Assembly (NCBI RefSeq): GCF_020447265.1 | Contig: NZ_JAJADR010000003.1 | Coordinates: 124,001-188,000, forward strand | Source of the DNA: Hymenobacter lucidus | Lineage (GTDB): Bacteria > Bacteroidota > Bacteroidia > Cytophagales > Hymenobacteraceae | Length of the DNA stretch: 64,000 nucleotides | Direction of reading: 5' to 3' | Notes under the pieces: generated by a model | The model's input: the letters and a program-made list of their open reading frames with translations, nothing else | What the model was told of the DNA's origin: nothing | The model's database searches: none | Position numbers and translations under genes: made by a program | Shown here: positions 2,044 to 11,869 of the stretch, piece by piece | How positions within the stretch are numbered: position 1 is the first letter of the stretch | Layout: the number at the start of each line of letters is the position of its first letter

Positions 2044-4671
2044 CTATTTCACCGAGTAGCTCACCGACAGATAGTACAACCCACCAATGCTCGGACCGCC
2101 CAGGAATGAGGCATAGTAGGTATTCAGCACATTGGTAGCGCCCAGCTTGAAGCGCAGCTCGGGCTGGGCCACGGTGCAGGTAATCTGGGCGTCGAGGCTG
2201 CCGTAAGCGGGTACTTCGCCGCTCACCAGAAACGTCTGGGAGTAGTAGTGCTGCTGCCAGTGGTAGCTCACCCCGAAGCCCAGGCTGCGGTACACTTTCT
2301 CGTGGCCCAGGCTCAGGTTCAGCATCCAGCGCGGGGTGTTGAAGCCGTCCTCCAGCCCGTCGCCCGACTCGGTGCGGGCCAGGCGGGCGTAGGTAGTATT
2401 GGCCCCGGCCAGCAGGCCACCCGGCAGCTCGTAGCGCAGCCCCAACGAGCCACCGTAGTTGTACACCCGGCTCCGGGCGTTGGTCCAGAGGCGGTAGCGG
2501 TGCTGCGTGTCCTTGTTGTTGAGGTAAATGGCGGCCGAGTCGGGGTTCAGCGTTTTGGGCATGTAGGCTTCCACCTGGGCAATAAAGTCGCGGTAGGCAT
2601 TGTAGTAAAAATCTACGTCGAGCAGCAGTTGGCCGCCGGGCAGCAGCGCCGCCTTGTAGCCCATTTCCAAGGACCTGATTCGCTCGGGCCGCAAATACGT
2701 GTAGGGGTTGCGCTGTAACAAGCGCTGGTTCTGCGCAATGGCCTGGCTCTGCTTCTGGGCCGGCGTGAGCGTGGTGGAGGTATTGGCATTTACACTGGCC
2801 GTTACGGCGGCGTTAAACGCGTCGATGCTGCTGCGCAGGTAGCTGTTCTCAAACACGCCGTCCGACATTACCATTAGCCCACCGATGCGCTTTACCTGTC
2901 CGCTGTTCACGTTGGAAAACCCCTCGAACAAGCTCGGGAAACGGTAGCCGCGCTGGTAGCTCACCCGAAAGTTGTGCCGCGCCGTGGGCGAGTACACCGC
3001 CGTAAAGCGCGGGTTGAAGCGCAGATCGAAGTAGTCGTTCTTATCGGCCCGCAGCGTGGCCGTGAGGCGCACTTGCTGCTCGAACAGCCGTGCTCCGGCC
3101 TGCACGAAGCCGCCGGTTTTGGAGTAGAGCAGGTTGCTGTAGGGGTCTTTATTTCGCGCCGGGTTGATGAAGTAATTTCCATCGGGCACGATGATATAAG
3201 TACGGTGGTCGGCCCCGGCCAGCAGGTCTACCGTAGCCGGAAACGCGCTGCCCCCCCGCCGCAGGGCTTCGGCCACGTTCACCTGGGCCTCGGCGTGCGC
3301 CAGGTTGGCCTGCACGCGTAGGGCCGCGCCCTGGTCCCAGTTGTTGATGTTCTGCAGCTCGCTCAGCTTCTGCCTGAACTGCGCCGTGCCGGGCTGGTAG
3401 CGGCCCGCGTCGGCCAGCCCCCGACCCGCCGCGTGGGCCTGGGCCACGGCTTGGCCGGCTCCGATGGCCTGGTCGTAGCCTCGGCCGTAATCGGTAATCC
3501 AGGTGGCGTCGGGCTTGTAGGTGCGGTCCAGGTTTTCGGCCATGGAGCGCAGGTTGTAGCTTTTGCCGGTGTTTTCGCGGGTGAGGTAGGCGCGGGCCTG
3601 CACCACGGGGCTCAGCAGCTGCAGGGCGTGCTGCTGCAGGCGGTAATCCTGGAGCTGAAACCGGTTGGAGCGCTGATACACGTTGTCGAGCACGGCCAGA
3701 CGGTAGGTGTAGGCCAGCTCGGCCCGGCCCAGTTTGTAGTGCAGCGCGGCATCGGCCTTGATGGTTTGCAGGCGGTAGTTTACCACGTCCTTTTCGTTGT
3801 AGCCGGTGCGGGCCACCGAGTAGGTTTTGCCGCCGCGCCGGAACATAATCTGGTCCGACGACTCGTTGCCGTAGCTGTTCACCGGGTCACGGGCCGGGTT
3901 TTCGGCGCCCAGCAGGCCCGTGGTAGCGTTGCCGTTGGGGTTCAGCTCGGTCTGGTCGTTGGCCAGCCAGTCGTAGCCCCGGCTGTAGGTGCCGTTTACC
4001 TTCACCGCCAGCCTCGGAGTCAGTGCTTTGGCATAGCGCATACTGGTTTCGGAATACGCCTTTGCACCCACGCTCGGGTCGTTCAGGTGGTTCAGGCCTG
4101 TCTTCTGCTGCACGCTCATTCCCTCCGACATAAACGGGTTGTGGGTGCTGAAATTGGCCAGGCCGTTAATGGCATTGAGCCCGTACAGCGCGGCGGCTGT
4201 GCCGGGCACTATTTCCACGCTGGCAATGTCCAAATCACTTGGCCCCAGCCCGTTGCCAATAGGCCCGCCGATGTGGGGCGCCTGCTGGTCGATGCCGTCC
4301 ACGAGCTGCACGAAACGCACGTTGGTAGTGTTGGCAAAGCCCCGCGCGTTCAGCACTTTAAAGCCCAGACTGGGCGTAATTACCTGTACGCCCTTCACGC
4401 TTTCCAGCGCCTCGAAAAACGACGGCGCGGGCGTGAGCCGCAGGGCCCGCGCGTTCAGCTTTTCCACCGTCACCGGCGACTGTAATATGCTTTCCTCCAC
4501 CCGCGAGGCGGCTACCACTACTTCGCTTAGCTCAATGGCCTGCTCCTGCGTGGTATCGGAAGCGGCGGCCGGAGCTTGCGCCCAGGCTTCGGGGCCGGCG
4601 CCGACCAGCCCCAGCAGCAAGCCCGCTAGTACGTTATACTTTTTACTTACCCGCAGTGTACAATTCGGCAT
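2044..4671 (-). CDS. TonB-dependent outer-membrane receptor, predicted molybdate-responsive
   Basis: An 875-residue TonB-dependent transporter. After a signal peptide ending near AWAQA comes a short lead with a TonB-box-like stretch (IELSEVVVAASR), a plug domain (roughly residues 50-160, with ARGF, LVDGIDQQ and VEIVPGTAAALYG) and a long beta-barrel ending YLSVSYSVK. It lacks the N-terminal carboxypeptidase-like domain seen in the second receptor of this window. The ATG at 4671 is preferred to a GTG six bases upstream. The gene lies just downstream of a modE-like gene, and a ModE-type operator covers its promoter. Import of molybdate or a molybdate-chelator complex is therefore inferred; the substrate is not visible in the protein itself. 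Confidence 0.9.
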   Translation of the reverse strand: MPNCTLRVSKKYNVLAGLLLGLVGAGPEAWAQAPAAASDTTQEQAIELSEVVVAASRVEESILQSPVTVEKLNARALRLTPAPSFFEALESVKGVQVITPSLGFKVLNARGFANTTNVRFVQLVDGIDQQAPHIGGPIGNGLGPSDLDIASVEIVPGTAAALYGLNAINGLANFSTHNPFMSEGMSVQQKTGLNHLNDPSVGAKAYSETSMRYAKALTPRLAVKVNGTYSRGYDWLANDQTELNPNGNATTGLLGAENPARDPVNSYGNESSDQIMFRRGGKTYSVARTGYNEKDVVNYRLQTIKADAALHYKLGRAELAYTYRLAVLDNVYQRSNRFQLQDYRLQQHALQLLSPVVQARAYLTRENTGKSYNLRSMAENLDRTYKPDATWITDYGRGYDQAIGAGQAVAQAHAAGRGLADAGRYQPGTAQFRQKLSELQNINNWDQGAALRVQANLAHAEAQVNVAEALRRGGSAFPATVDLLAGADHRTYIIVPDGNYFINPARNKDPYSNLLYSKTGGFVQAGARLFEQQVRLTATLRADKNDYFDLRFNPRFTAVYSPTARHNFRVSYQRGYRFPSLFEGFSNVNSGQVKRIGGLMVMSDGVFENSYLRSSIDAFNAAVTASVNANTSTTLTPAQKQSQAIAQNQRLLQRNPYTYLRPERIRSLEMGYKAALLPGGQLLLDVDFYYNAYRDFIAQVEAYMPKTLNPDSAAIYLNNKDTQHRYRLWTNARSRVYNYGGSLGLRYELPGGLLAGANTTYARLARTESGDGLEDGFNTPRWMLNLSLGHEKVYRSLGFGVSYHWQQHYYSQTFLVSGEVPAYGSLDAQITCTVAQPELRFKLGATNVLNTYYASFLGGPSIGGLYYLSVSYSVK

Positions 4672-4699
4672 ACGCACCCAAATAGAAGTCGAAATCAGT

Positions 4700-4723
4700 C
4701 GTTATATTTCTTCAAACATAACG
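4700..4723. promoter_or_regulatory. ModE-type operator
   Basis: A 24-bp inverted repeat with arms CGTTATATT (4700-4708) and AACATAACG (4715-4723) and a 6-bp spacer. From memory this matches the E. coli modA operator arms (CGTTATATT and TACATAACG, same 24-bp length) at all but one arm position. It lies 28 bp before the ATG of the TonB receptor gene and 103 bp from the modE-like gene. Confidence 0.75.
4713..4720 (-). promoter_or_regulatory. -7 promoter element inside the ModE operator
   Basis: On the minus strand TATGTTTG fits the Bacteroidota TAnnTTTG consensus. It lies wholly inside the ModE-type operator, so bound ModE would block RNA polymerase. The predicted transcript start is near 4706, about 35 nt before the ATG. 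No good -33 element was seen. Confidence 0.5.
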
Positions 4724-4826
4724 CTTATCTATCCGAATGGTTTTGGTGCAGCCGGAGGTTGCTGTGGTGCATTACCCGGCCCCATTCCAGTCGCAGCGGT
4801 ACTTGCTGGGCTGGTTCAGTGCGTCC

Positions 4827-5186
4827 TTATTCCAGCAGCCGGGCGGTTTCGGCGGCCAGGAAGGTTTGGAACCGCGCCTGCAGTTCCTCAAACTCGTGCA
4901 GCAGTTGCTGGCCTTCGGGGGTAACCAGGGCCCCACCGCCCCGCTTGCCGCCGGTTTGGGTACTTACCAGCGGCTGCCGCGCCTGCTGGTTCATGGAACT
5001 CACCAGCTCCCAGGCCCGCTTGTACGACATCTGCATTTCCTGCGCGGCCCGGGAAATAGAGCCCAGCCGGTGAATCTTTTCCAGCAATTCCAGCCGCCCA
5101 ATGCCCATAAATCGGTCGGTGGGTCCTTCAATCCACAGGCGGCCGTTCAGGCGAAAAGTCAGGTCGGGGTGCAGCAAATCTTTCAT
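4827..5186 (-). CDS. modE: ModE-like winged-helix regulator, DNA-binding domain only
   Basis: A 119-residue protein matching the N-terminal DNA-binding half of ModE, the molybdate-responsive regulator. The LysR-type winged helix-turn-helix is seen in LLEKIHRLGSISRAAQEM followed by SYKRAWELVSSM, then the ModE-typical wing (TGGKRGGGALVTPEG) and a C-terminal helix for dimerisation. Full ModE has two C-terminal molbindin domains that bind molybdate; they are absent here and the frame ends cleanly. The ATG at 5186 is chosen over an upstream TTG. The gene lies 155 bp upstream of the TonB receptor on the same strand, with a ModE operator between them. How molybdate would be sensed is not clear. Confidence 0.82.
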   Translation of the reverse strand: MKDLLHPDLTFRLNGRLWIEGPTDRFMGIGRLELLEKIHRLGSISRAAQEMQMSYKRAWELVSSMNQQARQPLVSTQTGGKRGGGALVTPEGQQLLHEFEELQARFQTFLAAETARLLE

Positions 5187-5300
5187 AGCTGCAATCTTAG
5201 GCAAAAGCCGTCGGCTTTGGCGGCGCCGGCTGTGTTACATGCCAATTCCGGCCAGCAGCCTATATTCAGCCTCTATTTCAGTCGTTCTCCTCCCTTTTTC

Positions 5301-7792: not shown

Positions 7793-10276
7793 ATGCGCCG
7801 TTCCCTACTCCTACCGCTCCTGCTTCTCACCTTGTTTTTACCGGCTGCTAGCTGGGCACAAACGTTGAATGGCTTGATTGCGGGTAAGCTGGTAGGTACC
7901 GACGGCGCGCCGCTGGAAAACATTTCGGTGAGCCTGAAAAAGGCCGGCACGGGCGTTAATACGTCGGCCGATGGCTCGTTCAAGCTGAAGGCGGAAGCCG
8001 GCACGCAGCTGCTGCACATCAGCGGCCTGGGCTACGTAACGCAGGAAACGTCGGTGGAAGTGGTAGCCGGCAAAACGACCACCTTGCCCACGCTCACGCT
8101 GGCCATCAACAAGCACGAACTGGCCGAGGTGAAGATTATGGAGTCGCGGGGCCTGAACCAGCGGCCCGCCAGCGTGAGCAAGATGCCTATTGCTCCGCTC
8201 GACCTGCCCCAGGCCGCTGTTACCATCGACCGGCAGGTGCTGGAGCAGCAGCAGGTGTTGCGCCTGAGCGACGCGCTGGTGAACGTGAGCGGCCTGTACG
8301 TGACCAGCGCTACCGGCGGCACACAGGAAGAGCTGGGCAGCCGGGGCTTTGCCTACGGCTCGAACAATACCTTTAAAAACGGGGTGCGCTTCAACAACGG
8401 CGTAATGCCCGAAGCCAGCTCGCTGGAGCGCATGGAAGTGCTGAAAGGCAGCGCGGCCATTCTGTATGGCAACGTGGCCGCCGGCGGCGTGCTGAACCTG
8501 GTAACCAAGAAGCCGCAGTTTGAGCGCGGCGGCTCAGTAGGGTTGCGCGTGGGCTCGTTCGGCTTGTGGAAGCCAACGGTGGACGTGTACGGCGCCGTGG
8601 GCAAGAGCGACAAAGTAGCTTTCCGCCTGAATGGCACCTTTGAAAAGGCCAACAGCTACCGCGACGAGGTGAAATCGGACCGGGTGTATGTCAACCCCTC
8701 GCTGCTGTTTGAGCTGACGCCCAAAACGACCCTGGTGCTGGAAGGCGACTACCTACGCGACAACCGCACGCCCGATTTCGGCGTGGGTGCCATCGACTAC
8801 AACGTGTTGGACTCGCGCACCCGGTTTCTGAACGTGCCTGGTGCCCAGTATACCACCAACCAGACCAGCACTACCGCTACTATCACCAGCCGCCTGAACG
8901 ACGCCTGGCAGGTGCGGGGCGTGGCCGGCTTCCAGCGCTACGACAACGACCAGCGCACTGGCAACCGCCCCACGGGCATCAACAACGGTACCATCACCAA
9001 AGGTGGCAAAGTGTATCCCCGGCCGCTGATGTACGGCAACTGGCAGCGCAGCCTGGCCCGCACCCAGGCCGCCGAGAACTACTATAGCGCCCAGCTCGAC
9101 CTGATTGGCAAGTTCAGCACCGGCTTCATCAGCCACACACTGCTGCTGGGCGCCGATGCTGACCAGTACCAGACCAACTCGCTCACCTACGCCACCCAGC
9201 TCTACGACTCCATCAACGTATTTGACCGTTCGAGAGTAGTAGCCTCGCCAGCCAAGCGCGTCAGCGGCTTCGATGAGCTGTATGCCGGCTCCCGCGCCCT
9301 GGGTAGCACCCGGCGCGCCGGTTTCTACGCCCAGGATTTGTTGAGCCTGACCGAGAAAATCAAAGTGCTGGCCGGCCTGCGCTGGAGCTACCTCGAAACG
9401 CCCATCACCAACTACGCCTACACCGCCCCCAATGCCAAGGGTGAGCAGACCATTATGGCCACCGAAGCTAAAACGCGTTACGACAACGCCTTTTCGCCCC
9501 GCGTAGGCCTGGTGTTCCAGCCCATCAAAACGATGTCGCTGTTTGCCTCCTACTCCAACTCCTTCGTGCCCAATACCGGTGCCACAGCCTTCGATATCAA
9601 CAACAAGCCATTGGCTCCTTCCATTATCGACCAAGTGGAAGTAGGTATCAAGAACGACCTGTTCAAAGGAGCGCTTTCGGCCAACGTAACGGCTTACCAG
9701 ATTGTCAACAGCAACCAGATTCAGGCCGTGCTGGCTGCCGATATTCCGAAGGATGCGCCTAACCAAACCAGCCCCCAGGAACTGGCCGGCCAGGTAACCA
9801 GCAAAGGCGTGGAAGTGGACGTGCAGAGCAAGCCTATGTACGGCGTGTCGGTCATTGCAGGCTATAGCTACAACAACACGGCCTACACCAAGAGCAACAT
9901 CTACGAAAACGGCAGCCGCCTGCGCTACAACCCCGCCCACACCGCCAACCTGAGCGTGTTCTACAACTTCAGCAGCGCCTTCGGCAACAACACCTTCCTG
10001 CGGGGTCTGAGCGCCGGCTTTACCACCTACTACGTGGGCGACAAGCTGGCCGGCCGCAACACCCGCACCACGGTAGCCAACGATGCTTTCCGTCTGATTT
10101 CGATTCCCAACTACACGCAGTTCGATGCCTCGCTGGGCTACAGCTACGAGCGTTTCTCGCTGCGGGTGAAGCTGGCCAACATTCTTGATGAGCTCAGCTA
10201 CAACATGCACGACGACAACAGCGTGAACCCCATTGCGCCCCGCAACTTCTCGGCTACGGCCAGCTACCGGCTGTAG
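7793..10276 (+). CDS. TonB-dependent siderophore receptor
   Basis: An 827-residue outer-membrane receptor. It has a signal peptide (to about residue 22, SWAQ), an N-terminal carboxypeptidase-regulatory-like beta-sandwich (about 28-108, IAGKLVGTDGAPLENISVSL), then a plug (about 125-235: QAAVTIDRQVLEQQ, LGSRGF, MEVLKGSAAILYGNVAAGGVLNLVTKKP) and a 22-strand-type barrel. LVTKKP and the barrel motifs match the FhuA/FoxA/ferrichrome-type siderophore receptors. The promoter contains three CATTCTAAA boxes. A PepSY membrane protein follows 125 bp downstream, the usual arrangement in which uptake is coupled to reductive iron release. Confidence 0.93.
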   Translation: MRRSLLLPLLLLTLFLPAASWAQTLNGLIAGKLVGTDGAPLENISVSLKKAGTGVNTSADGSFKLKAEAGTQLLHISGLGYVTQETSVEVVAGKTTTLPTLTLAINKHELAEVKIMESRGLNQRPASVSKMPIAPLDLPQAAVTIDRQVLEQQQVLRLSDALVNVSGLYVTSATGGTQEELGSRGFAYGSNNTFKNGVRFNNGVMPEASSLERMEVLKGSAAILYGNVAAGGVLNLVTKKPQFERGGSVGLRVGSFGLWKPTVDVYGAVGKSDKVAFRLNGTFEKANSYRDEVKSDRVYVNPSLLFELTPKTTLVLEGDYLRDNRTPDFGVGAIDYNVLDSRTRFLNVPGAQYTTNQTSTTATITSRLNDAWQVRGVAGFQRYDNDQRTGNRPTGINNGTITKGGKVYPRPLMYGNWQRSLARTQAAENYYSAQLDLIGKFSTGFISHTLLLGADADQYQTNSLTYATQLYDSINVFDRSRVVASPAKRVSGFDELYAGSRALGSTRRAGFYAQDLLSLTEKIKVLAGLRWSYLETPITNYAYTAPNAKGEQTIMATEAKTRYDNAFSPRVGLVFQPIKTMSLFASYSNSFVPNTGATAFDINNKPLAPSIIDQVEVGIKNDLFKGALSANVTAYQIVNSNQIQAVLAADIPKDAPNQTSPQELAGQVTSKGVEVDVQSKPMYGVSVIAGYSYNNTAYTKSNIYENGSRLRYNPAHTANLSVFYNFSSAFGNNTFLRGLSAGFTTYYVGDKLAGRNTRTTVANDAFRLISIPNYTQFDASLGYSYERFSLRVKLANILDELSYNMHDDNSVNPIAPRNFSATASYRL

Positions 10277-10353
10277 AAGGCGCTATACCTAGTGAATTGG
10301 TGAGGTAAGCCCGGGAGGTTCCAGCTGCAACTGGTGGCCTTCCGGGTTTATGG

Positions 10354-10380
10354 TTGAAACCCGGCTCCGTCTTATCTTTG
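10354..10380 (+). promoter_or_regulatory. Promoter of the PepSY protein gene
   Basis: TTG (10354-10356) and TATCTTTG (10373-10380), a full TAnnTTTG match with slightly short spacing (16 bp). It lies 21 bp before the ATG at 10402, which suggests the gene is transcribed on its own as well as with the receptor. Confidence 0.45.
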
Positions 10381-10401
10381 TTTTTTGCCCCGTTTGCCTC
10401 T

Positions 10402-11679
10402 ATGAAAATCCTGTTTCGCAACATTCACCTGTATCTGAGTCTGGCTTCGGGCCTGGTCATTGCCATTGTCTGCTTCACGGGCGGCGTGCTGGTATTCGAG
10501 AAAGAGCTGGACCAAGCCTGGCACCCCGAGCGGTTCTTTGTGACGCCGCCCGCCACGGCCCAGCGCCTGCCCCTGGCCCAGTTGATTGAAGCCGTAAAAG
10601 CTACCGACCCCAAGGCCAAGGTAGGCGGCGTGAAAGTATACGCCGACCCCACCCGCACCGTGGAAATCAGCTTGGCGGGTGGTCCGGGTGGCCCGGGTGG
10701 CAAGCCCGAAGGCGGCCGCGAAGGCAAAGCGGAGGGCGGCAAAGCCCACGCCGGCCAAGGCGGCGGGGAGCATGGCCCGAAAGCCGGCGAAAAGGGTGGA
10801 GAAAGAGGCAAAGGTGAAAAAGGCAAAGGCGGCGGCGAAGGCGGCCGGGGTCCCACGGTGTATGCCAACCCCTACACCGGCGCCATTATCGACAGGGTAA
10901 ATTACCGCGACACGTTTTTCTTCACTATGATGGCCCTGCACCGCGGCATGGTGGGCGGGGCCATCGGCAAGCTCATCGTGGGCGTGAGCACGCTCATGTT
11001 TCTGTTTATCATCGGTACGGGCATCGTGCTGTGGTGGCCCGCTTCGCGCAAGGTTATTAAACAGCGCCTGACGGTGAAGTGGGATGCCAGCTTTAAGCGC
11101 CTCAACCACGATTTACACATCGTACTGGGCTTTTACAGCGCCCTGTTTCTGTTCGTGTTTGCCTTTACGGGCCTGGCCTGGTCGTTCGAGTGGTTCAACA
11201 ACGGCATCTTCGCCGTCACCAGCTCCGACCCCAAAGGCCCCGAAGCGCCAAAGTCGACACTGAACCTGACTGGCGGCAAGCTCACCTTCGACCAGGCCTA
11301 CACCGTGGCCCGGCAGCAGGTGCCCGGCGCGCTGTCGTACGCCGTTTCCCTGCCCAAAGACTCGACGGAGGCCGTGCGGGTGAATACGACTTCCGCCAAT
11401 GCCGCCTACGAAGGCGCTACCGACGAGTTGTACCTCGACCAGTATACCGGCCAGCCGCTGGGCAAACTAAACTTCGAGGACCGCAACCTGGGCCAGCGTG
11501 TGCGCCGCACCTTCAAGCCCGTGCATACCGGGGCCATCTTCGGCACGCCGTCCAAAATCGTGGCGGTAGTGGTGTGTCTGCTGGGCGTCACCTTCCCGGT
11601 TACTGGCGTCATTATGTGGCTCAACCGGCTTAAAAAGGGCAAGAAAAAGCAGCAGAAGCAAGCCGCTATGGCCGCGTAG
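10402..11679 (+). CDS. PepSY-associated transmembrane protein (putative siderophore-iron reductase)
   Basis: A 425-residue inner-membrane protein of the PepSY_TM family. The first helix is at about residues 13-33 (SLASGLVIAIVCFTGGVLVF), then a periplasmic PepSY region, helices near 190-215 and 240-265, a second periplasmic domain and a final helix (IVAVVVCLLGVTFPVTGVIMW). Conserved histidines (LHRGM, NHDLH) may bind haem in this family. A Gly/Lys/Glu-rich insert covers about residues 92-152, within the first periplasmic region, and looks disordered. The start at 10402 is the conserved family start (MKILFRNIHLYL). It sits downstream of the siderophore receptor, which supports a role in iron release. 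Confidence 0.88.
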   Translation: MKILFRNIHLYLSLASGLVIAIVCFTGGVLVFEKELDQAWHPERFFVTPPATAQRLPLAQLIEAVKATDPKAKVGGVKVYADPTRTVEISLAGGPGGPGGKPEGGREGKAEGGKAHAGQGGGEHGPKAGEKGGERGKGEKGKGGGEGGRGPTVYANPYTGAIIDRVNYRDTFFFTMMALHRGMVGGAIGKLIVGVSTLMFLFIIGTGIVLWWPASRKVIKQRLTVKWDASFKRLNHDLHIVLGFYSALFLFVFAFTGLAWSFEWFNNGIFAVTSSDPKGPEAPKSTLNLTGGKLTFDQAYTVARQQVPGALSYAVSLPKDSTEAVRVNTTSANAAYEGATDELYLDQYTGQPLGKLNFEDRNLGQRVRRTFKPVHTGAIFGTPSKIVAVVVCLLGVTFPVTGVIMWLNRLKKGKKKQQKQAAMAA

Positions 11680-11741: not shown

Positions 11742-11869
11742 CTTTATGAGCTGGGCCTAACGCGCTGCTGCCTTTCTTGCCGGCAAGTGTGGCTATTTCA
11801 GCTCAACCGATATTACCGGGCAGTTACCCTGCTTTTCAAGGCAGCTCGCCCGAATACGACTCTTCACTA

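Follow-up and report, generated by a model that had tools for sequence, protein, structure and literature searches.

In Hymenobacter lucidus, a ModE-type operator is located directly upstream of a gene encoding a TonB-dependent receptor, TBDR1, and the association of operator and receptor is conserved among related bacteria. As the best explanation, to which we assign a probability of about 0.8, the arrangement would work as a molybdenum-acquisition switch, in which TBDR1, repressed by ModE, would import a molybdenum species across the outer membrane, and a permease of the MOT1 family would provide the inner step.

Operator, promoter and regulator

The palindrome found at positions 4700-4723 of the window (the whole stretch of 64,000 nucleotides analyzed, from contig NZ_JAJADR010000003.1) is 24 bp long, is assigned to neither strand, and is made up by the arms CGTTATATT and AACATAACG flanking the 6-bp spacer TCTTCA, exactly as described in the sequence-only reading. 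The same reading had remarked on its likeness to the E. coli ModE operator, and the likeness is complete: all 17 arm bases (9 in the left arm, 8 in the right) are the same in the modA operator of strain MG1655, which reads CGTTATATTGTCGCCTACATAACG in the genome record (NC_000913.3:795046-795069). Distances from the start codon are also similar, the gap between operator and modA ATG being 19 bp in MG1655, that between the end of the operator and the receptor start 28 bp in the window, if measured to the ATG at 4671, or 22 bp, if measured to the GTG at 4677. The motif occurs once in the window at up to three mismatches (0.04 sites expected from shuffles), and the degenerate box, with up to one mismatch allowed, matches nowhere else in the 5.94-Mb genome; the reversed motif, used as control, has no site in the whole genome. 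Uniqueness in window and genome, together with family-wide conservation, rules out a chance palindrome. As an E. coli-type sequence near the start of its target gene, the repeat is assigned by identity and conservation to the ModE operators, and the 125-aa regulator described below would bind it.

The receptor strand of the box carries TATGTTTG (4720 to 4713, minus strand), a candidate -7 element fitting TAnnTTTG. At box positions 4-11, 23 of the 47 boxes show this consensus on the receptor strand and 4 of 47 on the opposite one; in 4 more boxes it is displaced by two bases. The excess resides in spacer bases which are not fixed by the palindrome, and TAnnTTTG is hence probably a promoter element. 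A candidate -33/-35 element, possibly of the ECF type (AAC-N16-CGTT), is the AAC at 4740-4742 (minus strand), 16 nt upstream of the operator. In 29 of 51 loci AAC stands at precisely this distance from the box; each of the other offsets from -26 to -11 has it in 0 to 2 loci. Promoters read by ECF sigma factors resemble AAC-N16-CGTT, and more than one sigma factor could therefore read this promoter. The full Bacteroidota -7 element noticed earlier in the box fits the consensus, on the receptor strand, but is less general than supposed, given its presence in 23 of 47 boxes and the AAC-N16 alternative. Whether of the -7 or of the ECF type, the candidate promoter is covered by the operator.

The modE-like gene expected directly upstream is in place (4827-5204, minus strand, the same direction as the receptor, with an internal ATG at 5186), but codes for a DNA-binding domain alone. 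Its 125-aa product matches NCBIfam TIGR00637 with 88 bits (E 3e-25), just below the cut-off of 98.5, and in Pfam HTH_1 alone; matches in the PDB are 2ijl (E 1e-19) and the ModE chains 1o7l and 1b9m (E 2e-13). The N-terminal winged-helix domain of ModE regulators is present, at a score under the TIGR00637 cut-off, whereas neither of the two C-terminal Mop/TOBE molybdate-binding domains expected of ModE was detected by Pfam in the 125-aa protein, which is accordingly classed as a single-domain, ModE-like regulator rather than a full ModE. Homologues in Hymenobacteraceae are mostly 117-147 aa long. The missing Mop/TOBE domains, which leave molybdate sensing by this regulator unexplained, and the score under the cut-off count against the proposed switch. 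Desulfovibrio and D. psychrophila likewise have single-domain ModE proteins consisting of the HTH alone, as does PDB entry 2ijl, and the sensing mechanism of the Desulfovibrio protein has been called unclear (PMC545781). The Desulfovibrio operator, CGGTCACG-N14-CGTGACCG, precedes mod operons (PMC545781), whereas the window features an E. coli-type operator with a receptor as target. The system differs from E. coli ModE-modABC in the target, an outer-membrane TonB receptor, in the regulator devoid of Mop domains and in the genome devoid of ModA; base-for-base identity of the arms is shared, and in relatives the box precedes modABC and other molybdenum genes.

The receptor and its distribution

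The frame at 2044-4677 (minus strand, 877 aa) encodes TBDR1, the proposed molybdenum importer. It lies directly downstream of the operator, as reported by the sequence-only reading, yet translation more likely starts at the ATG at 4671 than at the GTG at 4677. Plug (E 2e-11) and TonB_dep_Rec barrel (E 1.5e-25) matches in Pfam place the protein among TonB-dependent receptors, and the N-terminal AIELSEVVVAASRV is TonB-box-like by eye. The AlphaFold model, based on 37 orthologues, has a plug-barrel fold (mean pLDDT 81.9), closest to BtuB (Z 34) and Cir (Z 33); a structure search for the ligand retrieved the general TonB-receptor fold only, no substrate being indicated. Paralogues of TBDR1 are 40-43% identical, measure about 960-1020 aa and form a separate clade (support 100/100). 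Neither modE nor the box was found at any of six paralogue loci, which rules out that box and modE are a trait of TonB receptors generally.

Box and regulator gene were surveyed in 120 Hymenobacteraceae genomes plus H. lucidus. Out of 121 genomes, 44 have both modE and box, 7 modE only (no box at up to one mismatch), 2 the box only, 68 neither. The co-occurrence has a Fisher P of about 5e-23, a figure which overstates the association, the genomes being related and non-independent. Most box sites (42/57) lie 18-502 bp downstream of the modE stop codon, and the gene next, or next but one, to the modE-adjacent box is a TBDR1 orthologue in nearly all cases. In one genome (G016) box and TBDR1 reside 3.2 Mb away from modE, which ties the box to the receptor, and not merely to the regulator gene. 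Conservation of the palindrome upstream of orthologous receptors, on which the sequence-only reading had made its proposal depend, is thus found in Hymenobacteraceae, and extends to several other families. Two Hymenobacter genomes lack both modE and box yet carry moaA; using molybdenum therefore does not require the system.

Additional genes are preceded by the box in the family. These include a SUOX-fold gene that heads a run of modA-modB-modC (L115, L117), Fe-S/FAD/Mo-hydroxylase operons (L068, L070-L072, L078, L082, L119, L120) and moaA (L093), and a degenerate box precedes modA in other Hymenobacter. The distance from box to start codon is mostly less than 90 bp at TBDR1 and SUOX-fold genes, 179-270 bp at Mo-hydroxylase operons. 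In E. coli, modA is repressed by ModE bound at the promoter, and other operons are activated by ModE from upstream positions. By analogy, the geometry of the boxes suggests that ModE would repress the receptor and activate the Mo-hydroxylase operons. ModE sites were reportedly surveyed earlier by Studholme and Pau in 2003.

In the phylum at large, genera with TBDR1 orthologues include Flavobacterium, Mucilaginibacter, Runella, Chitinophaga, Niastella and Adhaeribacter. A scan detected 356 related stretches, the best 80 of which were examined as loci. A modE-like gene resides in the same locus as TBDR1 in 63 of these best 80; most of the remaining ones bear the box or have moaA, Mo-hydroxylase or mod genes close by. 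In Flavobacterium sp. HJJ the gene order is modE-TBDR1-TBDR2-MauG-SUOX-fold-modA-modB-modC. A moaA frame overlaps TBDR1 in one locus (L211, genome G417), and moaA is near TBDR1 in L283, L284, L289 and L300. The link between receptor and molybdenum, earlier proposed from the operator, is independently backed by these modABC, moaA and Mo-hydroxylase neighbours, and by the complete run from modE through TBDR1 and TBDR2 to modABC.

The E. coli-type box is absent in Flavobacterium. Nearly all loci feature, just before TBDR1, a 24-bp palindrome, CAGTATTC-N8-ACATACTG, found again before TBDR2 in seven of them (L222, L231, L233, L240, L241, L254, L264); the L222 copies lie at 8964-8987 and 11812-11835. 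From its sequence and position the palindrome is a candidate lineage-specific ModE operator. The exact E. coli-type box was detected in the phylum scan in 36 of 395 genomes, mostly of family f18, the reversed control giving about 1. In f18 it precedes TBDR2, which belongs to a different receptor family from TBDR1, together with the SUOX-fold partner of TBDR2; further genes behind the box are modA, modD-modABC, one for a Mop protein and a NifB-like radical-SAM gene (Radical_SAM and Nitro_FeMo-Co domains). The ModE of f18 is full length, its two Mop-like repeats lying in a frame of 274 residues. A box that precedes molybdenum genes and occurs together with full-length ModE very probably belongs to ModE in f18 as well, and ModE-controlled receptors very probably arose or spread more than once. 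In L312-L323, mostly f18, E. coli-type boxes (sometimes two, 144 bp apart) are found between the TonB receptor/SUOX-fold partner and the NifB-like gene, full-length ModE being nearby.

The SUOX-fold partner is an exported protein of about 170 aa matching Oxidored_molyb (sulfite oxidase molybdopterin-binding fold). No cysteine able to ligate molybdenum is conserved in the alignment of these proteins, which may possibly bind molybdate or cofactor in the periplasm. SUOX-fold genes travel with ModE-linked receptors and modABC (L115 9033-9542, L204 4452-4967, and others), and a gene for a MauG/di-haem cytochrome c peroxidase is found within molybdenum receptor runs (L204 4970-6073, L116 9566-10693).

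That Bacteroidota share a phylum-wide TonB route for molybdenum, comprising TBDR1 and TBDR2, at least two ModE operator types, the pairing with MOT1 in Hymenobacter and a Mop-less ModE, is somewhat favoured by these data. If so, either molybdate would pass a TonB receptor as the free oxyanion, or there would be a molybdophore; moreover, molybdenum would be sensed in an undescribed manner in Hymenobacter without ModABC, where ModE has no molybdate-binding domain.

Molybdenum genes and the proposed switch

ModA is absent from the H. lucidus genome, having no match to TIGR01256 and a best match to PF13531 of 21 bits (cut-off 25), and ModABC elsewhere in the genome is thereby ruled out. ModA scores above cut-off in about a third of Hymenobacter genomes. 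Six Mo-hydroxylase genes are found in H. lucidus, along with a Moco cluster (fdhD, moeB, moaA, moaE, mobA-like, moaC, moeA) at about 232.5-244.1 kb of contig C11 (G000:C11; L221 3035-14636). Directly after moeB the cluster hosts a gene for a 393-aa permease assigned to the MOT1 family (PF16983, 186 bits, above the curated cut-off). No SUOX-fold partner was found in this genome. In Caldithrix abyssi a MOT1/PF16983 molybdate permease of the Moco locus is tied to a Moco riboswitch (PMC5317091). Also in H. lucidus the PF16983 gene is beside moeB and near moaA, but no Rfam match is found at the Moco locus. Control by a Moco riboswitch in place of ModE was ruled out, as neither the window nor the Moco locus has an Rfam match.

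According to the proposed switch, the single-domain ModE-like repressor (4827-5204) would bind 4700-4723, overlapping the TBDR1 promoter. The promoter would be covered when the cell has sufficient molybdenum, and TBDR1 made when the metal is scarce. By using TonB energy, TBDR1 would carry a molybdenum species across the outer membrane, as molybdate itself or in complex with a small chelator. Since the genome lacks ModA, passage of the inner membrane would then probably be through the MOT1-family permease encoded beside moeB, near moaA, moaE, moaC and moeA, and the imported molybdenum would feed the six Mo-hydroxylases. As ModE lacks molybdate-binding domains, both the substrate, which the gene company of TBDR1 suggests to be a molybdenum species, and the shut-off at plentiful molybdate are inferences.

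The imported species may be a molybdophore, in which a catecholate or a different kind of chelator, made by the cell itself or by others, holds the molybdate, a tentative refinement of the switch to which slightly less than even odds are given. Receptors of the TonB type more often serve large, scarce ligands than small anions able to pass porins, a secreted SUOX-fold protein and a MauG-like protein accompany the receptors, and the nearest solved folds include the catecholate receptors Cir, FepA and PfeA, the latter also solved with protochelin. The fold likeness, however, at about 13-18% identity, fits BtuB, FhuA and OprC equally and does not indicate the ligand, and OprC and MnoT are TonB receptors serving bare metals (PMC8602904). 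Import of the molybdenum cofactor, or of molybdopterin-type compounds, with the SUOX-fold protein as periplasmic carrier, would account for the Oxidored_molyb match of the exported partner, though this has no conserved Mo-ligating cysteine; it is quite improbable, as Moco synthesis is retained in the genomes, H. lucidus has TBDR1 without a SUOX-fold protein, and the operons run on into the molybdate transport genes modABC.

Phylum-wide linkage to modE, modABC and moa genes, with no iron-uptake genes seen as regular partners, makes it unlikely that TBDR1 serves siderophores or heme and is only incidentally regulated by ModE, perhaps so that Fe-S molybdenum enzymes receive iron, even if demands for iron and molybdenum are coupled in Fe-S Mo-hydroxylases and the top NCBIfam matches, far below cut-offs, are to heme/siderophore receptor families. 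Tungstate is a very improbable main substrate: ModE and related carriers often bind either oxyanion, but the partners found for TBDR1 are ModA proteins scoring above the curated cut-off, moaA and Mo-hydroxylases of the xanthine-dehydrogenase type. ModE, a dual regulator in E. coli, could also activate TBDR1 from the box instead of repressing it. This is hardly to be expected from a box which overlaps the candidate -7 element and is near the start codon, as is the repressed modA operator of E. coli, boxes of the Mo-hydroxylase operons being found 179-270 bp upstream instead.

Known metal receptors and additional TonB frames

Known ligands of TonB receptors are iron chelates, heme, cobalamin, nickel, zinc, copper and manganese. 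The zinc receptor ZnuD is governed by a metal regulator or low-metal signal. Further metal-linked receptors are OprC/CueR (copper), MnoT (manganese) and the NikR-linked receptor of Caldithrix (nickel) (PMC8602904, PMC5317091). TBDR1 would follow the logic common to all four, a metal regulator or low-metal signal governing a TonB receptor, yet their substrates are cations, whereas molybdenum usually occurs as an oxyanion. Searches of open-licence papers, in which "ModE" cannot be distinguished from "mode", turned up no TonB receptor for molybdenum, and an earlier mention is possible. The sole outer-membrane molybdate route met there is T6SS-ModA-IcmP of P. aeruginosa, which uses secreted ModA and an outer-membrane metalloproteinase-type protein (PMC8602904), whereas the route proposed here uses a TonB receptor. 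The same searches yielded no description of active molybdenum uptake through the outer membrane of Bacteroidota, a route which the sequence-only reading had called not well described in the phylum.

If the switch operates as proposed, a conserved molybdenum receptor would add an oxyanion metal to the substrates of TonB systems, and would hint at what hundreds of receptors with no assigned substrate carry (a single scan gave 356 related stretches). It becomes testable in culturable strains whether TonB energy is spent on molybdate or molybdophores are used, and how molybdenum is sensed by a single-domain ModE, which is unexplained in Desulfovibrio (PMC545781).

TBDR1 is split in two frames in one draft genome (L112 632-3256, G041), by a frameshift or an assembly error. 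At 7793-11679 the window hosts a further TonB receptor frame, of 827 aa, and behind it the frame of a membrane protein of 441 aa, PepSY-like by eye; the two are probably an ordinary siderophore system.
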